A DNA stretch of 41,657 bases, taken from a virus. The notes under the pieces are model-generated. The model was not told where the DNA came from, did not search any database, and was given only the letters and a program-made list of their open reading frames with translations. Numbering within the stretch: the first letter of the stretch is position 1; each line of letters begins with the position of its first letter. Below, piece by piece: positions 797 to 24,773 of this stretch. The stretch is taken from positions 1 to 41,657 of IMG/VR virus record IMGVR_UViG_3300034198_009363, one strand, 5' to 3'. Made by a program: the position numbers and the translations under genes.

Positions 797-3211
797 TTAC
801 TTCTTCGGCGCTGGGGTTTCGGGACGCGACTGGACGAAGTTCCGCCAATCCTCCAAGGCGATGGCATCGCGGTTGAATTGGTCCTCGGTGATCTGCCCAG
901 CTTCAAACTTGCGCGACAGTTCTCCGTAGGCGCCGATGATCCGCTTGGTCGCCTCACTCTTTGGAAGGCTGGTCATTTCGCCGCGATTGAATGGCGTGTT
1001 TACCGGGACAGGCTTACTGACCGCCATCTCTTGGGTGTTGATGATCTGGTGTCGCTTGATGGTGTCCTCGGCAAAGTCGCTGATGCGCTTGCTGAACTGC
1101 TCGGGGGTCTCTCCTTCACGGCCCGGATTGGCGGCGACGTACTGGTCGAACTCCTTGACCGCCCGGCCATAAATCTCCCGGCTGATGCCGGTGCCCATGA
1201 GGCCCGGATCCAGCGATCGGGTGATGCGGTCGTGGTTGACCTTGTAGGGAGTGGCCGGCGCATTCTGCTTCAGAAAGTCGTCATTCTTGGCCAACAGTGC
1301 CGCGCGAGTTCCTTTGCTCAAGTCGCCCGCATTGAACGCTGAGAAGATGTCGTCGCGCATATCGCGGATGCCGATGCCGCGCTGGATGCGCTCATAGGTG
1401 GCGGAATCATCCATGCGATCTTCGCCTGACGCGATTTTCTGCCAGTTCCGATATTCGCTTGCCGGCAGGTACGGCTGCGCCTTCTTCACGTCCTCGGTGG
1501 TCAACTGGCCCGCCACCTCCAGGTCGGTAAGTCCCTTTGCGGCCGTTTCGGCATTATCCTTTTTGCGCTTCTCCAGCACCTTGTCCTCGTACTGCCGCAC
1601 CTTCGCCAAGCCGTCCGAGTCGAGAGCGCCCCGGATTTCCGGCGGCAAGTTTTCCATGCCACCACCCGCGTCGATGTGGCCGAAGGCAGCCCGCTCAACG
1701 GTCGCAATCTGCTGCTGATACAGTGCATACCGGGTCGCATACTCCGACTTGATGCGGGCTGACACCTTATCCTGCAGGTCTAGGTCGCCGCCTGCCAGCG
1801 CGATACCGTTGGCCAGCATGGCGTCGAGGTTTGGCTTTTGGGGTGTACCGGAACGGGACAGGTCCAGCGGAGCGCCGATGCGCTGGGCAAGTAGCGCCTT
1901 GAGATCGCCAACCGTGTCTACCTTGGCCAGAAACGGGTTTGCCGCATAAACCTTTGCCGTGAAACCCTCATCCCCGCCATGGGCCTGCACTAGCCCCTGT
2001 TTGAGCGGGGTGTTGTCCGGCAGTTTCAGCAGTGCGGGACCGGCGCCCACACCAAGGAAGTGCGTCGTGTAGAGCGTGAGGTCATTAACTGGAACGTTAG
2101 CCGACTGCAGGGCGCGGACGCTGTTGTCGTCATACATCCGCTTGAGTTCGTCCTGCTTGGCTTCGCCGCCATCGGGCGACAAGAGCATCTGCCGGACCTC
2201 TGCCTGCGACTTGCCTTTGCCCCACTCGGTCTGCTGGGCCAACCCGGTATAGGTCTGTGGGATGAACTGGTACTTGCCCAGCGCGCCAATGCTGTTCTCA
2301 ACCGTTGGCGTCCCACCCTCGGCCCGAACCACCCGGGCATTATAGTCGGCGGACACCCCCCCAGTGGCCACGGCAATCCGGGAGATCTGCTGGGCGCGGC
2401 GGTTCTCTACCGCATCCTTGATTTCCCGCTCCAGCTTGATGTTGTCGTCGCCTTGGAACTTGGTGATGTTGGCCTGGTAGTACCTCTGGGCACCTACCGG
2501 ATCATCGGTGCTGATGTACCGACGCACGACACGCGAATTGAACTCGCTGTCATAGTCCTTGAGGCGGCGGGTCACGACCTCGGGCGGCTCGCCCTTGGCC
2601 TGCGCGTCCTCCATCAGCGAGTTGCGGCCCCTGAAATACTCTTGATCGCGCAGTTTATCTTCGTTGAAGTAAGTGGCGCCGGCTTCCTTGGCATCATCGA
2701 TCACCGCCTTCTGGGCAGAGTCAATCCACGCCAATCGCTGCACAGACGAATGCCGGGCAATGCCGTCAGACACGCCATCAATGCGGGCCTGCAGGACGCG
2801 CCCCAGCATAGCCTGCATTTGCTTGTTGTTACCGGCCCGTCCGAGATATTCGCCACGCAATTCGTCAATGGCCTTGAGGGTAGGCACCGTCGAGTCGTAG
2901 GCGTCTTTCCCGCGCTTGGCGTAGTACCCATTTTGGGGATCGTACAGCACGCCACGCAAAGCCGTGTTGAACTCGGTGTCGATCTCGCGGGCCTTAGTTT
3001 CGTTATCCTCCGCCTGCATACGCAGGGCGATGTTGCCGAGGCTGTCGGACGCCTTGTCGAGATAGGCGCCGGCCACCTGTAGGTCGCGAGCCTGGTTGCC
3101 GCCGAAAGCCGTGAGGTCGCCAATAGCCGGGATCGTGAGCGGCGTGAGGTTGATGTCGGCGGCCGGCCGGGCGACAGCCTCGCCGATCGGGTTGGTGCGG
3201 ATAACGGCCAT
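797..3211 (-). CDS. internal virion protein with lysozyme-like (transglycosylase) domain
   Basis: The protein has 804 residues. A lytic transglycosylase-like segment lies at about residues 280-410, with RAEGG (candidate catalytic Glu298) followed by GALGKYQFIPQTY, which resembles the SLT/lysozyme core. The rest is mostly charged, helical sequence. In T7-type phages such a protein sits in the capsid core and opens the peptidoglycan during DNA ejection; that role is inferred here. The start is the ATG at 3211, which overlaps the stop of the gp14-like gene by one base (TGATG). A longer in-frame start to 3262 would run into that gene and is not needed. It lies between the gp14-like gene and the giant internal protein gene. 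Confidence 0.8.
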   Translation of the reverse strand: MAVIRTNPIGEAVARPAADINLTPLTIPAIGDLTAFGGNQARDLQVAGAYLDKASDSLGNIALRMQAEDNETKAREIDTEFNTALRGVLYDPQNGYYAKRGKDAYDSTVPTLKAIDELRGEYLGRAGNNKQMQAMLGRVLQARIDGVSDGIARHSSVQRLAWIDSAQKAVIDDAKEAGATYFNEDKLRDQEYFRGRNSLMEDAQAKGEPPEVVTRRLKDYDSEFNSRVVRRYISTDDPVGAQRYYQANITKFQGDDNIKLEREIKDAVENRRAQQISRIAVATGGVSADYNARVVRAEGGTPTVENSIGALGKYQFIPQTYTGLAQQTEWGKGKSQAEVRQMLLSPDGGEAKQDELKRMYDDNSVRALQSANVPVNDLTLYTTHFLGVGAGPALLKLPDNTPLKQGLVQAHGGDEGFTAKVYAANPFLAKVDTVGDLKALLAQRIGAPLDLSRSGTPQKPNLDAMLANGIALAGGDLDLQDKVSARIKSEYATRYALYQQQIATVERAAFGHIDAGGGMENLPPEIRGALDSDGLAKVRQYEDKVLEKRKKDNAETAAKGLTDLEVAGQLTTEDVKKAQPYLPASEYRNWQKIASGEDRMDDSATYERIQRGIGIRDMRDDIFSAFNAGDLSKGTRAALLAKNDDFLKQNAPATPYKVNHDRITRSLDPGLMGTGISREIYGRAVKEFDQYVAANPGREGETPEQFSKRISDFAEDTIKRHQIINTQEMAVSKPVPVNTPFNRGEMTSLPKSEATKRIIGAYGELSRKFEAGQITEDQFNRDAIALEDWRNFVQSRPETPAPKK

Positions 3212-15540: not shown

Positions 15541-16169
15541 CAGATGCTCTGCAGGTCCCGCTGACGAACGTAGTAGTCCACGGCCTCTTGGGCCGTCTGA
15601 CCGTGCTTTTTCATTCGCCAAGAGATCGTGCCGCGGCCCAGACCAAGCGCCAATGTCACATGGTGAGCGGGCACTCTCTGGCCCCGAAACTCCACCCACT
15701 GCACTTTGCGAGTGTTCTGCGACTGCTGGGCTTTGGTGGCCCACCGGCAATTGCCCGGCTCGTAGTTTCCATCGCTGTCGATGCGATCCAAAGACATGCC
15801 CTCTGGGCGCGGCCCCATGTCCGCATAGAACGCCTCAAAATTCATCCAGCGGTCACATACCTTGATGCCGCGACCGCCGTAGTACGAGTAGGCAACCGCG
15901 TTCGGATTGGTGCATCGCTGGATCATACTTCCGCAGCAGATGTACTCAGGCGAAAACGACATACGATGCGTGGCCGTGCGCTGCCGCAGCTTCTCGCTGG
16001 TCAGGCAACCGCACGACCGAACGCGCCCTCGCGTTATGCCGTCTTCCCGGGCCGTCCACGGTCCTGTCCCACAGTCGCACTTCAGCACCCAGCGACGGCG
16101 GCTATAGTCATCGTTCGGAGCGCGAGCCAACACAGTGACACGCTCGATCCTTTGGCCTTCCTGTAGCAT
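15540..16169 (-). CDS. HNH/AP2-type homing endonuclease-like protein
   Basis: A 209-residue free-standing nuclease candidate. The N-terminal part has Cys residues (CDCGTG, SCGCLTSEK) that could bind zinc. The core YSYYGGRGIKVCDRWM followed by MSLDRIDSDGNYEPGNCRWA is characteristic of phage HNH/AP2-like proteins. The C-terminus is helical and may bind DNA (ALGLGRGTISWRMKKHG). It sits between the portal and the small head protein, overlapping both by one base, which looks like a clean insertion into the packaging operon. Confidence 0.78.
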   Translation of the reverse strand: MLQEGQRIERVTVLARAPNDDYSRRRWVLKCDCGTGPWTAREDGITRGRVRSCGCLTSEKLRQRTATHRMSFSPEYICCGSMIQRCTNPNAVAYSYYGGRGIKVCDRWMNFEAFYADMGPRPEGMSLDRIDSDGNYEPGNCRWATKAQQSQNTRKVQWVEFRGQRVPAHHVTLALGLGRGTISWRMKKHGQTAQEAVDYYVRQRDLQSI

Positions 16170-17845
16170 CAGATACCCGTGATTGCTTGGAGTGCCGACC
16201 TACCGCCCCCGATTGGCGTATCCGCAAGAGTCTTTGCTCCCTGTGCGATAGCCATGCCGTTTTGCATGGCCTGCTGCTGGGCCATCTGCTGGGCGCGCTT
16301 GGCCCTGATCTTGGCTACCTCGTCGTCGCCACGTACCACGCCGACCGGCGCACCCATGGCGTCGGCCATCAGGTCGATGCTCTCGTCCATGTCCAGCTTG
16401 TCGAGGACTTCCGGGTTGGCGCCGGCAAGGCTGCCCACGAACGATGCCACGCGCTCGATCGACCCGATGCGGGCGGCCTTCTGGGCCTGCGCCAGAACAC
16501 TGATAAGTTCGACCTCGAGGGCGTAGCCTTCAGCCTCGGGCGGCGGGGCGTGCGCGCCGAACAGGCGGTGCTTCACCATCGTCTCGTAGGTGTAGTCGAC
16601 CAGGGGCTTCAGCAGTTCAGAGCGCAGGCTGTCGAGGACAGGCCCGAGCATCATCAGCTTCTCTTCCTTGCGCGCGATGATCTCGATCTGGTTACGCGGC
16701 TGGATGCCATCCATTTGCGAGATCATCAGGAACAGATCGGCGTAGTAGGTCCGGCTGATGATGTCGCGGGTGTCCTGGATCAGCGCCTGCAGCGGCTGGA
16801 ACGATGACGGATTTGTCTGATACAGCGGGCGCATCATCTTGGCGCCGAGGTCGCCCGCGAAGTAGTTGATGTGGCCCGGCACGGTGCCCGAGGGCTGGCC
16901 CTGCAGTTCGACCGGCGCGGCCATGGGCGGATTGACGTGCTTGTCGACCGCGTTGTGCCGGCGCTTGGCGAGAACTTGCAGGCTCCGCACGTCGGGCTGC
17001 GCCTGATGCCCCGGCCCCGTGCCGTAGGCGTCGTTGCTCACGGTCTCCCAGCGCGGCGAGAGCACAGGCCATACCGAGTAGCCACGGTCGGAGAGGTAGT
17101 GCCCTTCCCTGCCCTGCTCGAGCCAGTAGACGCTGCGGTACTTCTTGCCCCGCGGGCCCAGCGCGCCCTTTTTGTAGTCCTTGCGCGGCTCGATCAGTTG
17201 CCACACCGGGACCTGCTGTTCCTTGATGTTGTCCTTCACCTTGCGGGCGATCTCCTCGCCGCAGGCCGCCTCGCCCCAGCGTTGCACACACTGGCGGGCC
17301 GAGAAGATGAACCGGCGGGCCATCGTGTCGACCTTGCCGCGGTCGTTGATCGACAGGTAGTACTCGCCGATCGTCATCGGGTAGGCGCGGATCACGTCGT
17401 CGAAGTCTTCCTCGAGGATCGCGCAGGCCGTGCCGAACACGCCCAGTTCCTGGTACATCAGCAGCAACACCTCGTAGATGTTGCTGTCCGAGAAAATCAT
17501 CATCATTCCTTCGCTGACCTGGTCGAGCCAGGCGCGAACGGAAGTGATCTGTGAAACCTGCTGGTCAGGCAGCGTGAGGCGGAACCACGGCCGGGCCGGG
17601 CTGGTCAGGCCACCCATGAGGCCCGCCTTCAGGGTGCGGATGGCGAACGTGGTCTGCGTGTCGAGGATCGCCTGAGTCTTCTGGTCGCCGCGGTTGGACT
17701 GGTTCGGCGCACGCCAGAACTCGCCCCTTTGCGGCAACTGATACTTGGCGATGTCGCGCCACTGGGCTTCCCACGACGTGCGCTGGAACTTCAACTCCTG
17801 AACACGATCGGTGCAGTAGTCGCGAAGTTCTCGGCTGATGGGCAT
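16169..17845 (-). CDS. portal protein (head-tail connector)
   Basis: A 558-residue protein of the podovirus portal family, forming the dodecameric ring through which DNA is packed. Typical features are the N-terminal TSWEAQWRDIAKYQLPQRG, TFAIRTLKAGLMGGLTSPAR, and FYADLF-type motif YYADLFLMISQ, then the basic RKEEKLMMLGPVLDSL helix. The C-terminus has a Gln/Met-rich helix (RAQQMAQQQAMQNGM). The gene overlaps the HNH gene downstream by one base. Length matches the family. Confidence 0.9.
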   Translation of the reverse strand: MPISRELRDYCTDRVQELKFQRTSWEAQWRDIAKYQLPQRGEFWRAPNQSNRGDQKTQAILDTQTTFAIRTLKAGLMGGLTSPARPWFRLTLPDQQVSQITSVRAWLDQVSEGMMMIFSDSNIYEVLLLMYQELGVFGTACAILEEDFDDVIRAYPMTIGEYYLSINDRGKVDTMARRFIFSARQCVQRWGEAACGEEIARKVKDNIKEQQVPVWQLIEPRKDYKKGALGPRGKKYRSVYWLEQGREGHYLSDRGYSVWPVLSPRWETVSNDAYGTGPGHQAQPDVRSLQVLAKRRHNAVDKHVNPPMAAPVELQGQPSGTVPGHINYFAGDLGAKMMRPLYQTNPSSFQPLQALIQDTRDIISRTYYADLFLMISQMDGIQPRNQIEIIARKEEKLMMLGPVLDSLRSELLKPLVDYTYETMVKHRLFGAHAPPPEAEGYALEVELISVLAQAQKAARIGSIERVASFVGSLAGANPEVLDKLDMDESIDLMADAMGAPVGVVRGDDEVAKIRAKRAQQMAQQQAMQNGMAIAQGAKTLADTPIGGGRSALQAITGI

Positions 17846-17848
17846 GGA

Positions 17849-18322
17849 TTACGCCGCCTTCAGGTGTGACCAGCGTTCACCGCGCCGAACGCGGTAGACG
17901 TGGGCAACAGTGATGCCGAAGGCCTCGGCCAGTTCGTTCGCCTTCTTCAGCCGCAGCGGGCGCTGCTCTGACAGGATCGTCACTGCCTGCTCGTGCGTCA
18001 GCTTGTGACTGCCCTGCAGTTCACCCATGGGTCGGTGCTGCCGGCCCTTGCGCCCACGATCGGCCATGTTGTCCTTGGGCGTGCCGAGGAACAGGTGGTC
18101 GGGGTTCACGCACGACGGCACGTCGCACTTGTGACAAACCTGCAGGCCGGTCGGGATCGGCCCATTGCTCAATTCCCACGACAGCCGATGCGCGCCCATG
18201 ACACGGTGAGTGCGGGGATGCTTGGTCTGCCCGTAGCCATTGTAGAAGCACGACATCGCCCAGAGCGCGCATCCTGTATTCGGTTCGGGAATGGCGCGCT
18301 CGGCGATGAAGGGGTGCATCAT
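17849..18322 (-). CDS. HNH homing endonuclease (HNH_3 type) with C-terminal helix-turn-helix
   Basis: A 157-residue protein. The N-terminal PNTGCALW, AHRLSWELSNGPIP, VCHKCDVPSCVNPDHLFLG and DNMADRGRKGR segments are the standard HNH_3 core, with His and Cys residues for metal binding. The C-terminal ELAEAFGITVAHVYRVRRG is a DNA-binding HTH. It is a paralogue of the HNH protein at 27497-27958. It lies between the Pro-rich small protein and the portal, overlapping the former by a few bases, so it looks like an inserted mobile nuclease gene. The ATG at 18322 shares bases with the preceding stop. Confidence 0.85.
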   Translation of the reverse strand: MMHPFIAERAIPEPNTGCALWAMSCFYNGYGQTKHPRTHRVMGAHRLSWELSNGPIPTGLQVCHKCDVPSCVNPDHLFLGTPKDNMADRGRKGRQHRPMGELQGSHKLTHEQAVTILSEQRPLRLKKANELAEAFGITVAHVYRVRRGERWSHLKAA

Positions 18323-18564
18323 CAACTCCCGAGAAGGGATTTCCCGAAGTTCTGCGTCGTGAAGGCCGGCGTGGTCAGGCCCTGCCCTCCCGTCGCAATC
18401 GTGCCCGCATATCCCGCGCTACCGGCTGCGCGCTTGCGCTGCTCGTTCACGCCGCTGACCACTGCGGCGTCAACCGGCGTAGGGGCAGGCGGCGGCGGTG
18501 CAGGCGTCGGCGGCATCTGCGGCATGGGCGGCGGCGCCGAGTATCCCCCTCCTCCAAAGCACAT
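18322..18564 (-). CDS. small Gly/Pro-rich protein upstream of portal
   Basis: An 80-residue protein. The N-terminus is MCFGGGGYSAPPPMPQMPP, then a Pro-rich run, then a short helix (VNEQRKRAAGSAG). Similar short Pro-rich proteins occur next to portal genes in several podovirus-like phages; their function is unknown. Stop shared with the HNH start. Confidence 0.55.
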   Translation of the reverse strand: MCFGGGGYSAPPPMPQMPPTPAPPPPAPTPVDAAVVSGVNEQRKRAAGSAGYAGTIATGGQGLTTPAFTTQNFGKSLLGS

Positions 18565-18566
18565 GA

Positions 18567-21092
18567 TCAGGCCTCCAGGGGGTCGTATTCGGTGATGTGG
18601 CTGCCGCGGCGATCGTCGGCGCCGGCAAGGCGCGCAGCCACGGGCACGGCAAACGTCAGCGCCAGCGCATCGGCAATGTCAGGGGATGCGAGGCCGCGCT
18701 TCTTCATGTCGTCCTTCTTCTCCAACTGGAGAGCATTCTTCGCGTCGTAGCCGTACTCTCGGCCGGTCAGGTCGGCCGCCATCTCTGGCGTGTTCGGGAT
18801 CGCCCCGCCCTTCAGCCACTCACGCATGCGGCCCCACATCTCGGCCGCGCGGTTGTTGAACAGCGGCAGGCCACCTTCCGGCGTCCACCCCTGGGGCTTC
18901 TCGCCGAAGCCGACCTCGTAGACGTTCGGCACCCGCAACTGGCGCAGCCGATCGATCACGCCGCCGCCGGCACCGGCATCGACGCAGATGGCGTCGGCCT
19001 TCATCTCGACCGCGATCTCGGCCACCTTGCCGGCCAAGGTCATGTTGTCGACCTCGCGCAGGATGACCGGCGGCCAGGTGCGACCGTCGCGCCCGCGGCG
19101 GATGTAGATCACGCTGCGGTCGTCGCCGAACCGGGCCGGATCGACGCCCAGCACCACCGGGTCGGTGATGTTGCAGACCGCGTCCCGCTTCTGCGCGGCC
19201 TCGACAATGTCGGTGCCGATGAACTGCATGCTGCCGGCTCGAGGGAATGCGCCCCGCACGCGGACGCGGATGAAGTCGCTGTCCTCGCCGTAGTCGTTCA
19301 CCCACTGCTCGATCTGGGCCTTGTTGGTCATGCTGACCGACCGGCTGTCGATCTGGTTGTTCGACCAACGGTGGCTGAACCGGCCGCCGCTGAAGCATTC
19401 TCTGAAGCGCCCCGTGTTCTTCGTCGGGTTGCCAAAGGCGCACCAGAACAGTTCGGTGTCCGCGTCCGTCAACGCGCCCTCGATCGTCTCCCAGACAATG
19501 TCGGGGATGGCCGAGGCCTCATCAAAGATCGCGAAGGCCCGCTTGCCCTTGTTGTGCAGGCCGGCGATGGCCTCTGTGTTGTTCTCCGACCAGGTGATGG
19601 CATCCACCCGCCATGTCCTGTCGTGCCCACGCAGCGCGCTGTAGAGGGCCGTGGCCGTGCAGGCGAACCACGCCTTGTTGATGGCCAGCGCCCACCACTT
19701 GGTGAGTTCCGGCCACGTCTTCGTGCGAAGCTGCCCCTCTGTGTTCGCCGTCACCACGCCGCGCGCGTCGGGGTAGGTCGACATCGCCCACATGATGATC
19801 CAGGAGACCAGGGCCGAGTTGTGCGTCACGATGTGGTCGCGCGTCACGAACAGCCGCGACGGATGCTCCACCGCGATGCAGACCGCCTCGCCCTCCCCCG
19901 CCGGCTCGACCGACTGAATGAACCGCTCCAGCGTGCGCGCCCTGTTCGGATGATCCGCAGGACGCCACCGCTCTGCCTTGGCCCCATTCCTGAACGGGGC
20001 AATCTCGTTCGGCAGCGCCAAGGACAGCGTCCAAGCCTGCCGGCCTTCCAGCGTCTCGCCATCGGCGCCGCGATAGCGCGGGCGCCGGCATCCCGTCATC
20101 CGGGCCACGCCGCCCAGCGAGCGGACCAACTCTGCCACCCCGTCCGCCAGCCTCTTGCTGGTGGTCGTGTACGACAGGTTGCCGTTGCTGGTCGTGCCGT
20201 CCGTATCCAGCAGCCCCTGCAGCACAGCCGACCGTTGGGCGATCGAACCGTGCAGGTAGGGGCGCGGGATGAACTTCTCCCACGACCGCACGCCAACCAG
20301 GCCGAGGGCCACCAGCGCGGGCTTGATGCCCAGCAGGCGGATGCCGCCGATCTTCTCGGGCTTGTCGGGGATGGCCGACACTTCCACGCCCGCTGCCATC
20401 GCTGCCGCAAGCTGCGGCTCCCGCTTGGTGGCGGGGCCTGTCAGCACGCTCTCGCAGCCATCGCCCAGCCAGCACCCCAGCAGGTACGGGTCGAGCGGCA
20501 CCGTTGCCTCCGGGTGCTGGATAGGCTCCAGCCTCGGCAGGCGGTGGTTCAGGCCGTCGCGCGCCCCGTTCGGGAACGTCAGGGACGCGGCGATCTCCGC
20601 TGTCGTGCGGACTGATCCCGGTCGCCCACGCTTCCGTTCGCTTCGCGTGCTCGTCAGCCACCGATGCTCGGCATCGGCCAGCACTGAGCAGCCATCGTCC
20701 AGCATGACGCGGTACAGCGGGCGCCGCCCTTGCGGGAAGACACCCGTGATCCGAGTGAACGTGCCGTCGACCGTGGCAACCAGATCGCCCACGGCCATGT
20801 CTCCGATCCGGCGCCACCCCGTGGGGGTCAGCACCGGCTCATCGACGTGTTCCGCTTTGCCGATGCCGTGGCCCGAGGCGATGGCCTCGCGGACAGCCTC
20901 GGCCGGCGTCACCAGCCCCTTGCCCAGCCGCTCGAGCAGGTCGCGCTGCCAGGGCTCAGGCCCCTTCTCGTGCTCAAGCACCGTGCCCTTGGCGCCCCAC
21001 GGGAAGGCGAACAGGACGTAGCCCAGCGGGTCGTGCCGGAAGCCCATCACTGCGTCGTGTAGCGCCTGGACCTCGTCTACGGCTTGCCTCAT
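18567..21092 (-). CDS. terL: terminase large subunit interrupted by an intein
   Basis: An 841-residue precursor. The extein parts are residues 1-79 and 426-841, giving a mature protein of about 495 residues. Walker A is SGHGIG then K79, with the partner Ser426 supplied only after splicing. Walker B is AIFDEAS; the nuclease domain has VLGVDPARFGDD, CVDAGAGGGVIDRL and DIADALALTFA. It would power DNA packaging and cut the concatemer. The ATG overlaps the stop of the small subunit gene (ATGA). With the Walker A split, ATPase activity should be impossible before splicing. Confidence 0.92.
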   Translation of the reverse strand: MRQAVDEVQALHDAVMGFRHDPLGYVLFAFPWGAKGTVLEHEKGPEPWQRDLLERLGKGLVTPAEAVREAIASGHGIGKAEHVDEPVLTPTGWRRIGDMAVGDLVATVDGTFTRITGVFPQGRRPLYRVMLDDGCSVLADAEHRWLTSTRSERKRGRPGSVRTTAEIAASLTFPNGARDGLNHRLPRLEPIQHPEATVPLDPYLLGCWLGDGCESVLTGPATKREPQLAAAMAAGVEVSAIPDKPEKIGGIRLLGIKPALVALGLVGVRSWEKFIPRPYLHGSIAQRSAVLQGLLDTDGTTSNGNLSYTTTSKRLADGVAELVRSLGGVARMTGCRRPRYRGADGETLEGRQAWTLSLALPNEIAPFRNGAKAERWRPADHPNRARTLERFIQSVEPAGEGEAVCIAVEHPSRLFVTRDHIVTHNSALVSWIIMWAMSTYPDARGVVTANTEGQLRTKTWPELTKWWALAINKAWFACTATALYSALRGHDRTWRVDAITWSENNTEAIAGLHNKGKRAFAIFDEASAIPDIVWETIEGALTDADTELFWCAFGNPTKNTGRFRECFSGGRFSHRWSNNQIDSRSVSMTNKAQIEQWVNDYGEDSDFIRVRVRGAFPRAGSMQFIGTDIVEAAQKRDAVCNITDPVVLGVDPARFGDDRSVIYIRRGRDGRTWPPVILREVDNMTLAGKVAEIAVEMKADAICVDAGAGGGVIDRLRQLRVPNVYEVGFGEKPQGWTPEGGLPLFNNRAAEMWGRMREWLKGGAIPNTPEMAADLTGREYGYDAKNALQLEKKDDMKKRGLASPDIADALALTFAVPVAARLAGADDRRGSHITEYDPLEA
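19818..20855 (-). mobile_element. class 3-type intein with LAGLIDADG endonuclease domain in TerL
   Basis: A 346-residue intein (precursor residues 80-425) lies between Lys79 and Ser426 of the Walker A motif. Its first residue is Ala, not Cys or Ser. The class 3 triplet is visible: Trp145 in AEHRW (block B), Cys405 in AVCIAVEHPS (block F) and Thr423 in IVTHN (block G), with terminal Asn425 and Ser+1. The endonuclease has two LAGLIDADG motifs, LLGCWLGDG and LQGLLDTDG, both with acidic residues (Asp211, Asp298), so it may still be active. Class 3 inteins start splicing through the block F Cys. Homing is inferred, not seen. Confidence 0.88.
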
Positions 21093-21364
21093 CGCTTGCC
21101 GGACCTCGAGAGGCCTTGCTCGATCAAGGCGAGCAGCCGGTCATTCGCGCCGAGCTCGACATCGTGGCTCTGGTTGGGCTTGCCATCCAGCCGATCGGCC
21201 ACTTCCTTGATGGCCGTGATGTCGCCGCTCTCTGCAGCCTCGACCAGCTTGTTTGCGATCACGCGCAGGCGGTGCTGCTTGTCTTTGCGCTTCTCATTGA
21301 CGGCGAGGTTCAGCGCATCGCGGAAGCGCTTCTCGCTCCAGGCGCCGCGCGGGCGGCCACTCAT
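21089..21364 (-). CDS. terminase small subunit-like protein
   Basis: A 91-residue protein directly upstream of the large subunit, overlapping it by ATGA. GRPRGAWSEKRFRDALNLAV and ITAIKEVADRLDGKPNQ resemble a small DNA-binding protein family that sits in this position in many phages and is often annotated as small terminase. It would recognise the packaging site. Length is short, as in other members. The assignment is mostly contextual. Confidence 0.65.
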   Translation of the reverse strand: MSGRPRGAWSEKRFRDALNLAVNEKRKDKQHRLRVIANKLVEAAESGDITAIKEVADRLDGKPNQSHDVELGANDRLLALIEQGLSRSGKR

Positions 21365-21876
21365 ATAAAAACCCCCAAGCTTTTGACGCTGTTGGCAAAA
21401 TCAGGGTCGCGCTGCACGGAGTCCTTAAGCTTTTCCAGCATCCTGAGACGCAGGCGCTCCTGTGCCTCCGGCGGCAGAGACCTCTGGTACTTGGCGAACA
21501 TAATCTTGATGGTCCGCAGCCTTCTGGCGATGGCCGAAAGGTTTGCTGGCCGGGGCTCAGGCCTTCCGCCGGTGCCCCCGGCAGAAATGTTGAGCAGCTT
21601 CCCGCTGTTGCGATGCGCCGCAATCAGCCTTCGCTCTGCCTGCTCCCAGTCGGTATCCGGCACCCACTCCAGCACGGTGAAGTTGACCGTCCGCCCGGCG
21701 TCCAGTTCCCGGTACAACCAGTGCTGCACTGGATAGCGCCGCCTATGCCGGTCGGCCCTGTGTTGGAACCAGCGCTTGCGCGGGTTGTTGGCTTTTCCGA
21801 TGTAGCGGACCACGCCTGAGCAATCCGAGATGGCGTAGATCGCCGTCTGTCCCGGTCTGCCCTTTTCGATGGTCAC
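21361..21876 (-). CDS. GIY-YIG homing endonuclease-like protein
   Basis: A 171-residue protein. The N-terminus has AIYAISDCSGVVRYIGKANN, the GIY-YIG core, with RKRWFQH (candidate catalytic Arg) next and a short zinc-free C-terminal helical region. The start is GTG at 21876 after a GGGG site. It is the first gene after the early terminator and overlaps the small terminase start by ATGA, so it is carried at the front of the packaging operon. Free-standing GIY-YIG genes are mobile in phages. Confidence 0.8.
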   Translation of the reverse strand: MTIEKGRPGQTAIYAISDCSGVVRYIGKANNPRKRWFQHRADRHRRRYPVQHWLYRELDAGRTVNFTVLEWVPDTDWEQAERRLIAAHRNSGKLLNISAGGTGGRPEPRPANLSAIARRLRTIKIMFAKYQRSLPPEAQERLRLRMLEKLKDSVQRDPDFANSVKSLGVFI

Positions 21877-21884
21877 GGGTCCCC

Positions 21885-21926
21885 AAAATAAAAGCGCCCG
21901 CCGAGAGGGTCACTCTGGACGGGCGC
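21885..21926 (-). terminator. strong terminator at the end of the early leftward operon
   Basis: On the minus strand, GCGCCCG pairs with CGGGCGC, with an inner AGAG/CTCT stem, and a T-rich tract TTTTATTTT follows. It lies between the last early gene (stop at 21983) and the GIY-YIG gene. About 20-30 bases upstream (TGTCAA at 21947-21952 read on the other strand, TTGACA) is a perfect -35 hexamer, but I see no clear -10, so a late promoter here is only possible. Confidence 0.75.
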
Positions 21927-21982
21927 GTTGCTAATGCTGGGAATCATGTCAATCAACTGGGGAGGCGGCTACCAGATGTTGT

Positions 21983-22234
21983 TCACAGTCGAAGCACTTT
22001 GCATATCGGGCTGATCCACTGTTCTTCGGGAAGCGGCGCTTCCAGCAGTGCTTCGACGTGCACCCGGCCCTTGGCGGTGATGATGCCCAATTCGTCCGGG
22101 CGATCTATCAGGCCCCGGAAATGCAGATATTTCCTGCAGTCTTTTATAAAGCCTGGGCTTCCCTTGTAGGGGTACGGCTCCTCGGGCGGGGAGTGGTACA
22201 TGTGCACCAGCATCCCAAGCGTTGCTGCATTCAT
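21983..22234 (-). CDS. small winged-helix-like protein
   Basis: An 83-residue protein. Predicted helices and a wing-like hairpin (CRKYLHFRGLIDRPDELG, then IITAKGRVHVEALLEAP) resemble small phage DNA-binding proteins with a winged-helix layout. The ATG overlaps the previous stop by ATGA. The last gene of the early operon, it sits between a regulator cluster and the terminator. The longer in-frame start is rejected because it overlaps the previous gene. Confidence 0.5.
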   Translation of the reverse strand: MNAATLGMLVHMYHSPPEEPYPYKGSPGFIKDCRKYLHFRGLIDRPDELGIITAKGRVHVEALLEAPLPEEQWISPICKVLRL

Positions 22235-22692
22235 GCGACCTCGACCTCCTGTTCCCGCTCGGCGCGGCGCGCGTCGTCGTAGGCTGTTGCCTCCTTGTCC
22301 CACTGGCGGGCGGCGCCGCGGAGGACGTGCTTGGCCCAGCTATCGATCGGCGCCTCGTCCTCGGCCCATGCCACGATCAGGCCGGGGCGCACGGTGTAGG
22401 CGCCAGGCGTGAAGCGGCCACCCCATGCACGGTAGACCGCCCAGAGGCGCTCCTGGCCGGGGGACATGCTGCCGTTGCCCTTCCCGCCTTCCCGCATGTA
22501 GTCGACCGGCTTGTGGCCGACCGCGCCCGTGATCAGCTTGTAGGCGCTGACAATCTGCAGCACCGATTCAAACTCTTGGGCGTCGAGGTCGCCGGCCTCG
22601 AGGAGGCCTCGCAGCGCCCACGGCTTGAGCTTGGCGAGGGTCTCGGGGGTCGGGCCTACCCGCTCCTCGCGGAGAACGCGGCGGCGGGTCAT
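22231..22692 (-). CDS. conserved phage protein of unknown function
   Basis: A 153-residue soluble protein, basic at the N-terminus. LKPWALRGLLEAGDLDAQEF and LQIVSAYKLITGAVG are helical; then there is a low-complexity GGKGNGS linker. A C-terminal acidic/basic helix ends the protein. I recognise no family. Overlaps on both sides by ATGA link it tightly to its neighbours. Confidence 0.55.
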   Translation of the reverse strand: MTRRRVLREERVGPTPETLAKLKPWALRGLLEAGDLDAQEFESVLQIVSAYKLITGAVGHKPVDYMREGGKGNGSMSPGQERLWAVYRAWGGRFTPGAYTVRPGLIVAWAEDEAPIDSWAKHVLRGAARQWDKEATAYDDARRAEREQEVEVA

Positions 22693-22841
22693 CGCGGCGC
22701 CTTCCAGTAGTCCATAGGCGTCGGCGTGTAGTCCTGCCGGTGGGGGACGCCAGTCGGCGTGTTCTCACGGACTAGCTGACGCAGCCACATCCGCAGCCAT
22801 CGATGCTCCCACTTGCTTTCGATGATCTCGGCGTCGGTCAT
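22689..22841 (-). CDS. 50-residue protein in the early operon
   Basis: A 50-residue frame reading [20 protein letters not shown] and ending in DYWKAPR. It starts with an ATG overlapping the stop of the sigma-like regulator gene (ATGA) and stops in an ATGA overlap with the next gene. This double coupling is why I call it real despite its size. It is Trp/Arg-rich, with an acidic N-terminus. Function unknown. Confidence 0.55.
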   Translation of the reverse strand: MTDAEIIESKWEHRWLRMWLRQLVRENTPTGVPHRQDYTPTPMDYWKAPR

Positions 22842-23407
22842 GCTGCATCCCCATCGATCACGTCTGTGAACCTGATGCCCTTCCTGGCCGCTGCGCGCTT
22901 CATCTTCAGCAGCGCCCGCTTGGTGATCTGCCGGGCGCGTTCGCGGGTGACATCGCCACCGTGCTGCCCTACCCCTTCGCCGACATGGCCGAGGGTCTCG
23001 CCCCTCGCGAAGGCGGCTATTGCCTTCACCTCGGCCGGGCGCAGGGACTTCATCAACTCCTGCAGCGCCAGCCGATCGACGTGGCCCGGCGCGCTGATTT
23101 TCGCAGCCTCGTCCAAGGTCAGGGTGAACTCACCCGAGGCCTGCGATAGCGCCACGGCACGCATCTCTGCGGGCCACAGTTCCTCGGGCTCCATGTGGAC
23201 GGCGCTCGACACGGCATAGGCGGTCGGCGTCCAGTCACCTGTGTAGGTGTTGAACGCTCGCGCCCGCATCGACAGCAGCGCAGACAGGTGGTTCGGGTTG
23301 AGGTGGTTCTTGCGGCAGAACTCGGCGTAGGTGTTGGCGCCGGTCGCCAGGATCGCGCGCTTCAGGCGAGCGTTCTTCACCCGGAACTCGATGGCGATGT
23401 CGCTCAT
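22838..23407 (-). CDS. transcription regulator: XRE-like N-terminus and sigma-70 region-4-like C-terminus
   Basis: A 189-residue protein. Residues about 15-50 ([19 protein letters not shown]) look like a helix-turn-helix of the XRE type. The C-terminal part [16 protein letters not shown] then [20 protein letters not shown] matches sigma-70 region 4, which contacts the -35 box. The rest links the two. A protein with this layout at the end of the early operon, just before the late genes, could be a late-gene activator; that is inference. The start is the ATG at 23407, overlapping the stop of the DUF1376 gene. Confidence 0.72.
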
Positions 23408-24267
23408 GCCGCCTCCGTCGCGCTGTAGCGCGGGCTGTTGTCGAGGAACGCCGCCGGCACGCGGCAGCCCGGTTCGCCGGGGCGCGGCCCTGCGGAGTGC
23501 GTGTTCCAAAAGCCGTCCTTCCGCCAGTCGGCCATACGCTTCTCCCAGGGTTCAGCGGGCGGCAGATCCGCCTTGGCCGGTTTCTCCCAAGGCTTACGCT
23601 TGCCCGGCGCTCGAGCGGACACGGCCCGCTCCATGAAGCCCATAGGGTCCATCGCTCCCTCGCGCTGCCCTGCCCCCAACGCCTCGATCAATGCGGCATC
23701 GCCGATCGCCTTGCGCCACTTGCCAAGCTGTGACCGGCAGTAGCTTTCAGGGCGTGCGGACTTGGCAAGCAGCCATCTTAGTCCTTCATTGAAAATCACC
23801 GACGCGGCGTCAGCCGTGTCCGTATCTTTAGATACGGAAGGTGACGGTGACGGTAGGCAACGGGAAGGCAACGGCGTTTCAACATGTGTTGGATTGCCGT
23901 TGAGTTCCCGTTGGTCTTCCGTTGAAGTTTCGTTGGCCTTCCGTTGACGCTTTGCTGCGCTAGCCTTGCCCGCCTTACTGCGCTGACCAGTCACGGCAGA
24001 AGCGATTGCCAGTTCCTTCACGACCCGTTCGTGCGTGCAGTCGTCGTTGAAGAAGGCGACCACGGCAGGCCCCTCGACCTCCCACTCGGCCGGTGTCATG
24101 CGGGCAATCGCGGCCTGCTGGGCGGGCGCGTCCGGTATCCGGCCCTCGCTGCGCCAGGAGTGCATCAGCAGCAGTAGATAGGCACCGTGCTGGCGCGTGG
24201 TCAGGTGCATCGTGTCCGCGAGGTAGTCCCCGACGTACAGCGGCATCCATTTTTCATGGGCCGCCAT
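23404..24267 (-). CDS. DUF1376 (YdaU-like) replication protein
   Basis: A 287-residue protein. The N-terminal [20 protein letters not shown] is the DUF1376/YdaU signature, usually found in phage replication-initiation proteins. A Lys/Arg-rich linker (about residues 120-145) leads to a Ser/Pro-rich stretch and a helical C-terminal region with an [18 protein letters not shown] tail. No helicase or primase motif is present, so it may recruit host replication proteins. Start overlaps the HNH stop (TAATG). Confidence 0.78.
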
Positions 24268-24773
24268 TAGTCGATCCTCTGGGTAACGGCATCCATCACT
24301 TTCGCGAAGTGTTCGCGCCAGCGCGGGTACGAAACGTGCCGCCAATCAGTCGCCTCGGTCCCCTTCCCCGCATTGCAACGCGCACATATCGGCTGGAGAT
24401 TTTCCAACGCATCGCTGCCGTCCTGATGTAGCGGCACGATGTGGTCCTTTTCCAGATTGCACTCGTCGGCCCCACAACGGACGCAGCGACCGAAGATTTC
24501 GCGCAGCACTTGCCATTCAAGTGCGGTGTGCGTCCCGCGTGCTTTAGCTGCTTCCAGGCGTTGCCGGCGCCGCTCGCGATACATCCGCTTATTAGGGCCG
24601 GGCTTGGCGAGCACCGATTGCCGAACGGATTGGGTGTCTGGTAAAGTCTTGTCAGCCAACACGGCCTCCTTCCAGGTCGTTGTGGTTAGAGCCGGGACAG
24701 GCGTTTGCAGCGCCGCCCGGCTCATATCTTTTGAGATAACTCCAAAGCCTTGTGGAAAGCGCGCGGAGTTCAT
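24267..24773 (-). CDS. HNH endonuclease
   Basis: A 168-residue protein. The C-terminal half is a classic zinc HNH module: [19 protein letters not shown], then [15 protein letters not shown], with two CxxC pairs and His in DHIVPLH. The N-terminal ~60 residues are basic and lack a known domain, except for a Lys/Arg-rich segment likely to bind DNA. I chose ATG 24773 because it overlaps the preceding stop. It sits among replication genes, so it may be an inserted homing nuclease or a phage function in DNA processing. Confidence 0.8.

Follow-up and report, generated by a model that had tools for sequence, protein, structure and literature searches.

Inteins of phage large terminases include those of mycobacteriophage TerL1, for which Kelley et al. 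(2016; PMC5050341) describe five insertion sites, a to e, all within the ATPase domain of TerL; at site a the insertion falls between the invariant Lys and the Thr of the P-loop. In the same study, several of these inteins (c, d and e) are class 3, the examples tested from the five sites splice, and two of them cleave alleles that lack the intein. An intein in the TerL of Salmonella phages 66FD, 65FD and PAT1, proteins annotated solely as terminase large subunit, lies at the site SGHGIGK/SA and has class 3 residues and LAGLIDADG motifs. Solved class 3 structures come from Mycobacterium DnaB mini-inteins, which have no endonuclease (Msm DnaBi1, 6bs8, likewise in a P-loop; MchDnaB1, 6rix and 6riy). 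The yeast VMA intein PI-SceI joins a splicing domain to a two-motif LAGLIDADG endonuclease and uses class 1 chemistry.

The window analysed here is an entire virus record of 41657 bases (GC 65%), and its terL gene carries an insert with the following features.

18567-21092, minus strand: terL, a single 841-aa frame
20856..21092, minus strand: N-extein of terL, 79 aa, ending ...SGHGIGK, from alignment to the intein-free TerLs of epsilon15 and PfDIW6
19818..20855, minus strand: assigned class 3 intein of 346 residues, inserted after Lys79 and before Ser426, from translation, orthologue borders, fold and alignment
20664-20666, minus strand: His143 (intein H64, block B, B:10)
20658..20660, minus strand: Trp145 (intein W66, block B:12)
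20460..20462, minus strand: Asp211 (intein D132), predicted catalytic acid of the first LAGLIDADG motif, LLGCWLGDG; Asp in 49 of 53 aligned inteins
20199..20201, minus strand: Asp298 (intein D219), predicted catalytic acid of the second LAGLIDADG motif, LQGLLDTDG; Asp in 53 of 53; PF14528
19878..19880, minus strand: Cys405 (intein C326, block F:4), presumed to start splicing as the nucleophile
19818..19826, minus strand: Thr423-His424-Asn425 (intein T344-H345-N346, block G:5-7), from alignment
18567..19817, minus strand: C-extein of terL, from the +1 Ser426 to the stop, from alignment to intein-free TerLs and the PHROG terminase large subunit

Insertion point and class of the intein

The terL product is a large terminase by PHROGs (phrog_2, 1.5e-39), with a C-extein 46-53% identical to the TerLs of the listed epsilon15-like phages, and the capsid protein of the window belongs to the GP7 family. 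Known phages gave no DNA-level match to window positions 16000-24400. As the closest prophage TerLs lie mostly in Rhodospirillales/Reyranella genomes, an alphaproteobacterial host is likely.

Translation places 346 uninterrupted codons (TerL residues 80-425) within the terL frame, where they split the Walker A motif as SGHGIGK/S; the TerLs of epsilon15 and Pseudomonas phage PfDIW6 align through SGHGIGK-SA without a gap and without the 346 residues. A survey of 80 viral TerL relatives included two that were truncated, and 76 of the 78 with a readable site are intein-free at this point, the other two having THN/S there (L162 and L116, the latter in a record that ends within the gene, at the contig end). 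Prophage TerLs are intein-free in 78 of 80 cases, with THN/S again in the remaining two. Because these more than 150 intein-free orthologues, ~97% of comparable TerLs, read straight through the point and few are occupied, the insertion can be taken as real, with exact borders and a sporadic distribution. Chance is ruled out for the segment itself, which matches 772 phage records, 721 of them covering 80% or more of it, these being counts of segment matches in which the class 3 residues were not part of the criterion. An earlier note on this DNA had placed the insert at 19818-20855, with 346 residues interrupting SGHGIGK/S, and had proposed looking for intein-free alleles in related phages; its position is accurate to the base, its residue numbers (Trp145, Cys405, Thr423-His424-Asn425 and Ser426) are all correct, and such alleles are those just counted.

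With the border set by the intein-free orthologues, position 1 of the intein is Ala80, leaving no Cys, Ser or Thr nucleophile there, and the +1 residue is Ser426. H64, W66, C326 and T344-H345-N346 align with the corresponding residues of the solved class 3 DnaB inteins, and W66, C326 and T344 supply the WCT triplet at B:12, F:4 and G:5. Across 53 aligned inteins the block B His, the Trp, the Cys and the last Asn are invariant, the Thr is found in 51 and the penultimate His in 52. An AlphaFold2 model of the intein, built with 35 relatives (mean pLDDT 87.1), has the HINT splicing fold of solved class 3 inteins: it matches 6bs8_C, a class 3 DnaB intein, with Z 19.6 and 1.3 Å over 123 of 125 residues, and matches PI-SceI with Z 25.8 over 328 residues. 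The earlier assignment to class 3 is thus upheld by both alignment and predicted fold. Taken together, these comparisons argue for a class 3 intein of full length, carrying a LAGLIDADG homing endonuclease with two motifs, between the Walker A Lys and Ser of an epsilon15-type large terminase, a reading to which we attach a probability of about 0.95, and nothing found contradicts a class 3 intein as the explanation of the terL insert.

Endonuclease and transfer

The intein segment matches PF14528 LAGLIDADG_3 at 1.8e-8, and both motifs keep their acids, D132 and D219, as the earlier note had read them, in a predicted fold that matches PI-SceI. That note's suggestion that homing may be active fits the comparison with the nearest relative, L009, an IMG/VR contig that carries the same intein. 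DNA identity to L009 jumps at the intein edges: it is 96.7% within the intein, against 85.2% for the N-extein and 87.7% for the C-extein (34 differences in 1038 positions against 189 in 1486; p = 4e-18). The change falls at or close to the intein borders, with ~75 bases upstream of the insertion also little altered. As identity is higher and dS lower inside (0.11, versus 0.49-0.53 in the exteins), the two intein copies split later than the genes that carry them. This pattern of transfer, visible in the alignment itself, points to recent movement of the intein, as by homing, with cutting as the presumed step; the window and L009 may each have got the intein from a third source. Empty sites are available among viral and prophage intein-free alleles, with as few as 2 mismatches in 48 positions to the joined site (L093 and the Rhodospirillales prophage L179), and such near-identical sites together with the L009 signature are consistent with homing. 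In such homing, the endonuclease would cleave terL alleles without an intein at their P-loop codons, and repair from the intein-bearing copy would spread the intein. Both the window and L009 encode the Lys just before the insertion (20856-20858) with AAA, and among the intein-free alleles listed 14 of the closest 15 use AAG; the AAA is possibly a trace of co-conversion.

Two free-standing genes resembling homing endonucleases flank the terminase genes of the window.

17849-18325, minus strand: HNH_3 homing-endonuclease-like gene, between a small gene after terL and a portal-like gene
21089-21364: putative small terminase gene (DUF5681)
21361-21876, minus strand: GIY-YIG homing-endonuclease-like gene, immediately upstream of that putative small terminase gene

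With the LAGLIDADG intein within terL, the packaging locus therefore has three endonuclease families. L009 has neither flanking gene at these places, where it has 20 bp and ~41 bp instead.

Splicing and alternative readings

By analogy with its class, the TerL-intein precursor would fold first, after which Cys326 of block F would attack the Lys79-Ala80 bond and the N-extein would move to Ser+1; Asn346 would then cyclise as the exteins are joined, restoring a TerL with GHGIGKS in which a peptide across the joined site would span GHGIGKSALVSW. Because the intein sits between the Walker A Lys and Ser, and following published reasoning for TerL and DnaB (PMC5050341, PMC6195587), we infer on sound grounds that TerL is likely to be without proper ATP binding until splicing occurs, and that packaging would have to wait for it.

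It is improbable, though not without precedent, that splicing is also conditional, with oxidation or Zn2+ at Cys326 acting as a switch on packaging. In the M. smegmatis DnaBi1 intein, class 3 and in a P-loop, oxidation stops splicing through Cys48-Cys118, and zinc does so at Cys118 (PMC6195587, PMC7360933), and Cys326 is a residue of the same kind as Cys118. However, the partner Cys48 aligns with Leu47 in the window intein, in a column with Cys in just 4 of 53 aligned inteins, and a DnaBi1-type disulfide switch is rejected on that account; published TerL inteins spliced readily with ligated exteins as the main product (PMC5050341), and nearly all comparable TerLs do without an intein. The idea of redox or metal sensitivity raised in the earlier note thus keeps its precedent in DnaBi1 and loses the known redox partner. 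Somewhat less probable again is a role for the intein beyond that of a parasite, in which its splicing, started by the Cys, would sense the condition of the infected cell and set when this phage assembles its packaging motor.

We consider it very unlikely that the intein has decayed and lost its splicing, which would make the terminase non-functional and the phage or prophage inviable. The literature does include a class 3 intein that is a pseudogene (PMC3196547), and conservation could outlast a recent inactivation for a while, but the frame is open, every splicing residue is intact, and relative to L009 the C-terminal splicing segment is unchanged in amino acids while its N-terminal counterpart has a single change, with an intein dN/dS of ~0.07. 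Judged by these substitutions, the window and L009 copies are under purifying selection. The least probable reading, a class 1 or class 2 intein mistaken for class 3, would draw on the lack of a position-1 nucleophile, which class 2 inteins share, and on class 1 PI-SceI being the top full-length fold match, but PI-SceI ranks there because it also contains an endonuclease, and the reading is rejected by the presence of W, C and T, co-conserved in the aligned inteins, by class 3 DnaB inteins being the nearest solved inteins by sequence, and by the 1.3 Å superposition of the splicing domain on 6bs8.

Relatives and comparison with known systems

Because single-sequence scans with the class 3 intein found no relative in genome contigs and only two in viral contigs, an alignment was used to search for relatives. 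The next closest intein after L009 is 53% identical (L011; its insertion site was left out, as its N-extein is in another frame). L162 carries a full class 3 intein (1942-3000) at the same TerL site as the window, with Asn replacing the first LAGLIDADG acid (LLGNG), and its endonuclease is probably dead. The two occupied prophage-like TerLs, from a Patescibacteria MAG contig (L219) and Pseudescherichia vulneris (L248, which resembles 66FD), have the intein C-terminus C..V...THN/S at that site. A TerL of another family (L010, 2452-6399) has a class 3 intein at GPGK/S and a second, class 1-like intein near its C-terminus (CLAYGTVV...IVKN/C). Five same-site inteins of the epsilon15-like TerL family fall in three places on the intein tree, so the site was probably filled more than once; a single origin is unsupported by this tree, which is a quick one with L162 on a long branch.

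Set against the mycobacteriophage TerL1 inteins, with which it shares residence in the TerL ATPase domain, the P-loop location of site a and class 3 chemistry in several examples, the window intein belongs to a different TerL family (epsilon15-like) and has Ser rather than Thr at +1. The Salmonella 66FD-type intein (L002) shares the TerL family and the site with the window intein, but identity between the two inteins is 33%, and the tree places them in distinct groups, both well supported. Identity to the DnaB inteins is 34% over the splicing domain (1.3-2.1 Å), and to PI-SceI 19%. The earlier note had called class 3 inteins a minority class; they are not rare in phages, and the P-loop (GK/S or GK/T by pattern) is the usual location, in 58 of the 80 viral intein loci examined (see also PMC5050341). 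Published precedents exist for the intein class, for the host protein and for the site, and the general view is unchanged. What the window adds to the epsilon15-like terminases is a class 3 intein with clean borders and a seemingly intact endonuclease, together with a transfer signature against a close relative and intein-free alleles with a nearly identical site; it would be well suited to tests of homing into a P-loop.
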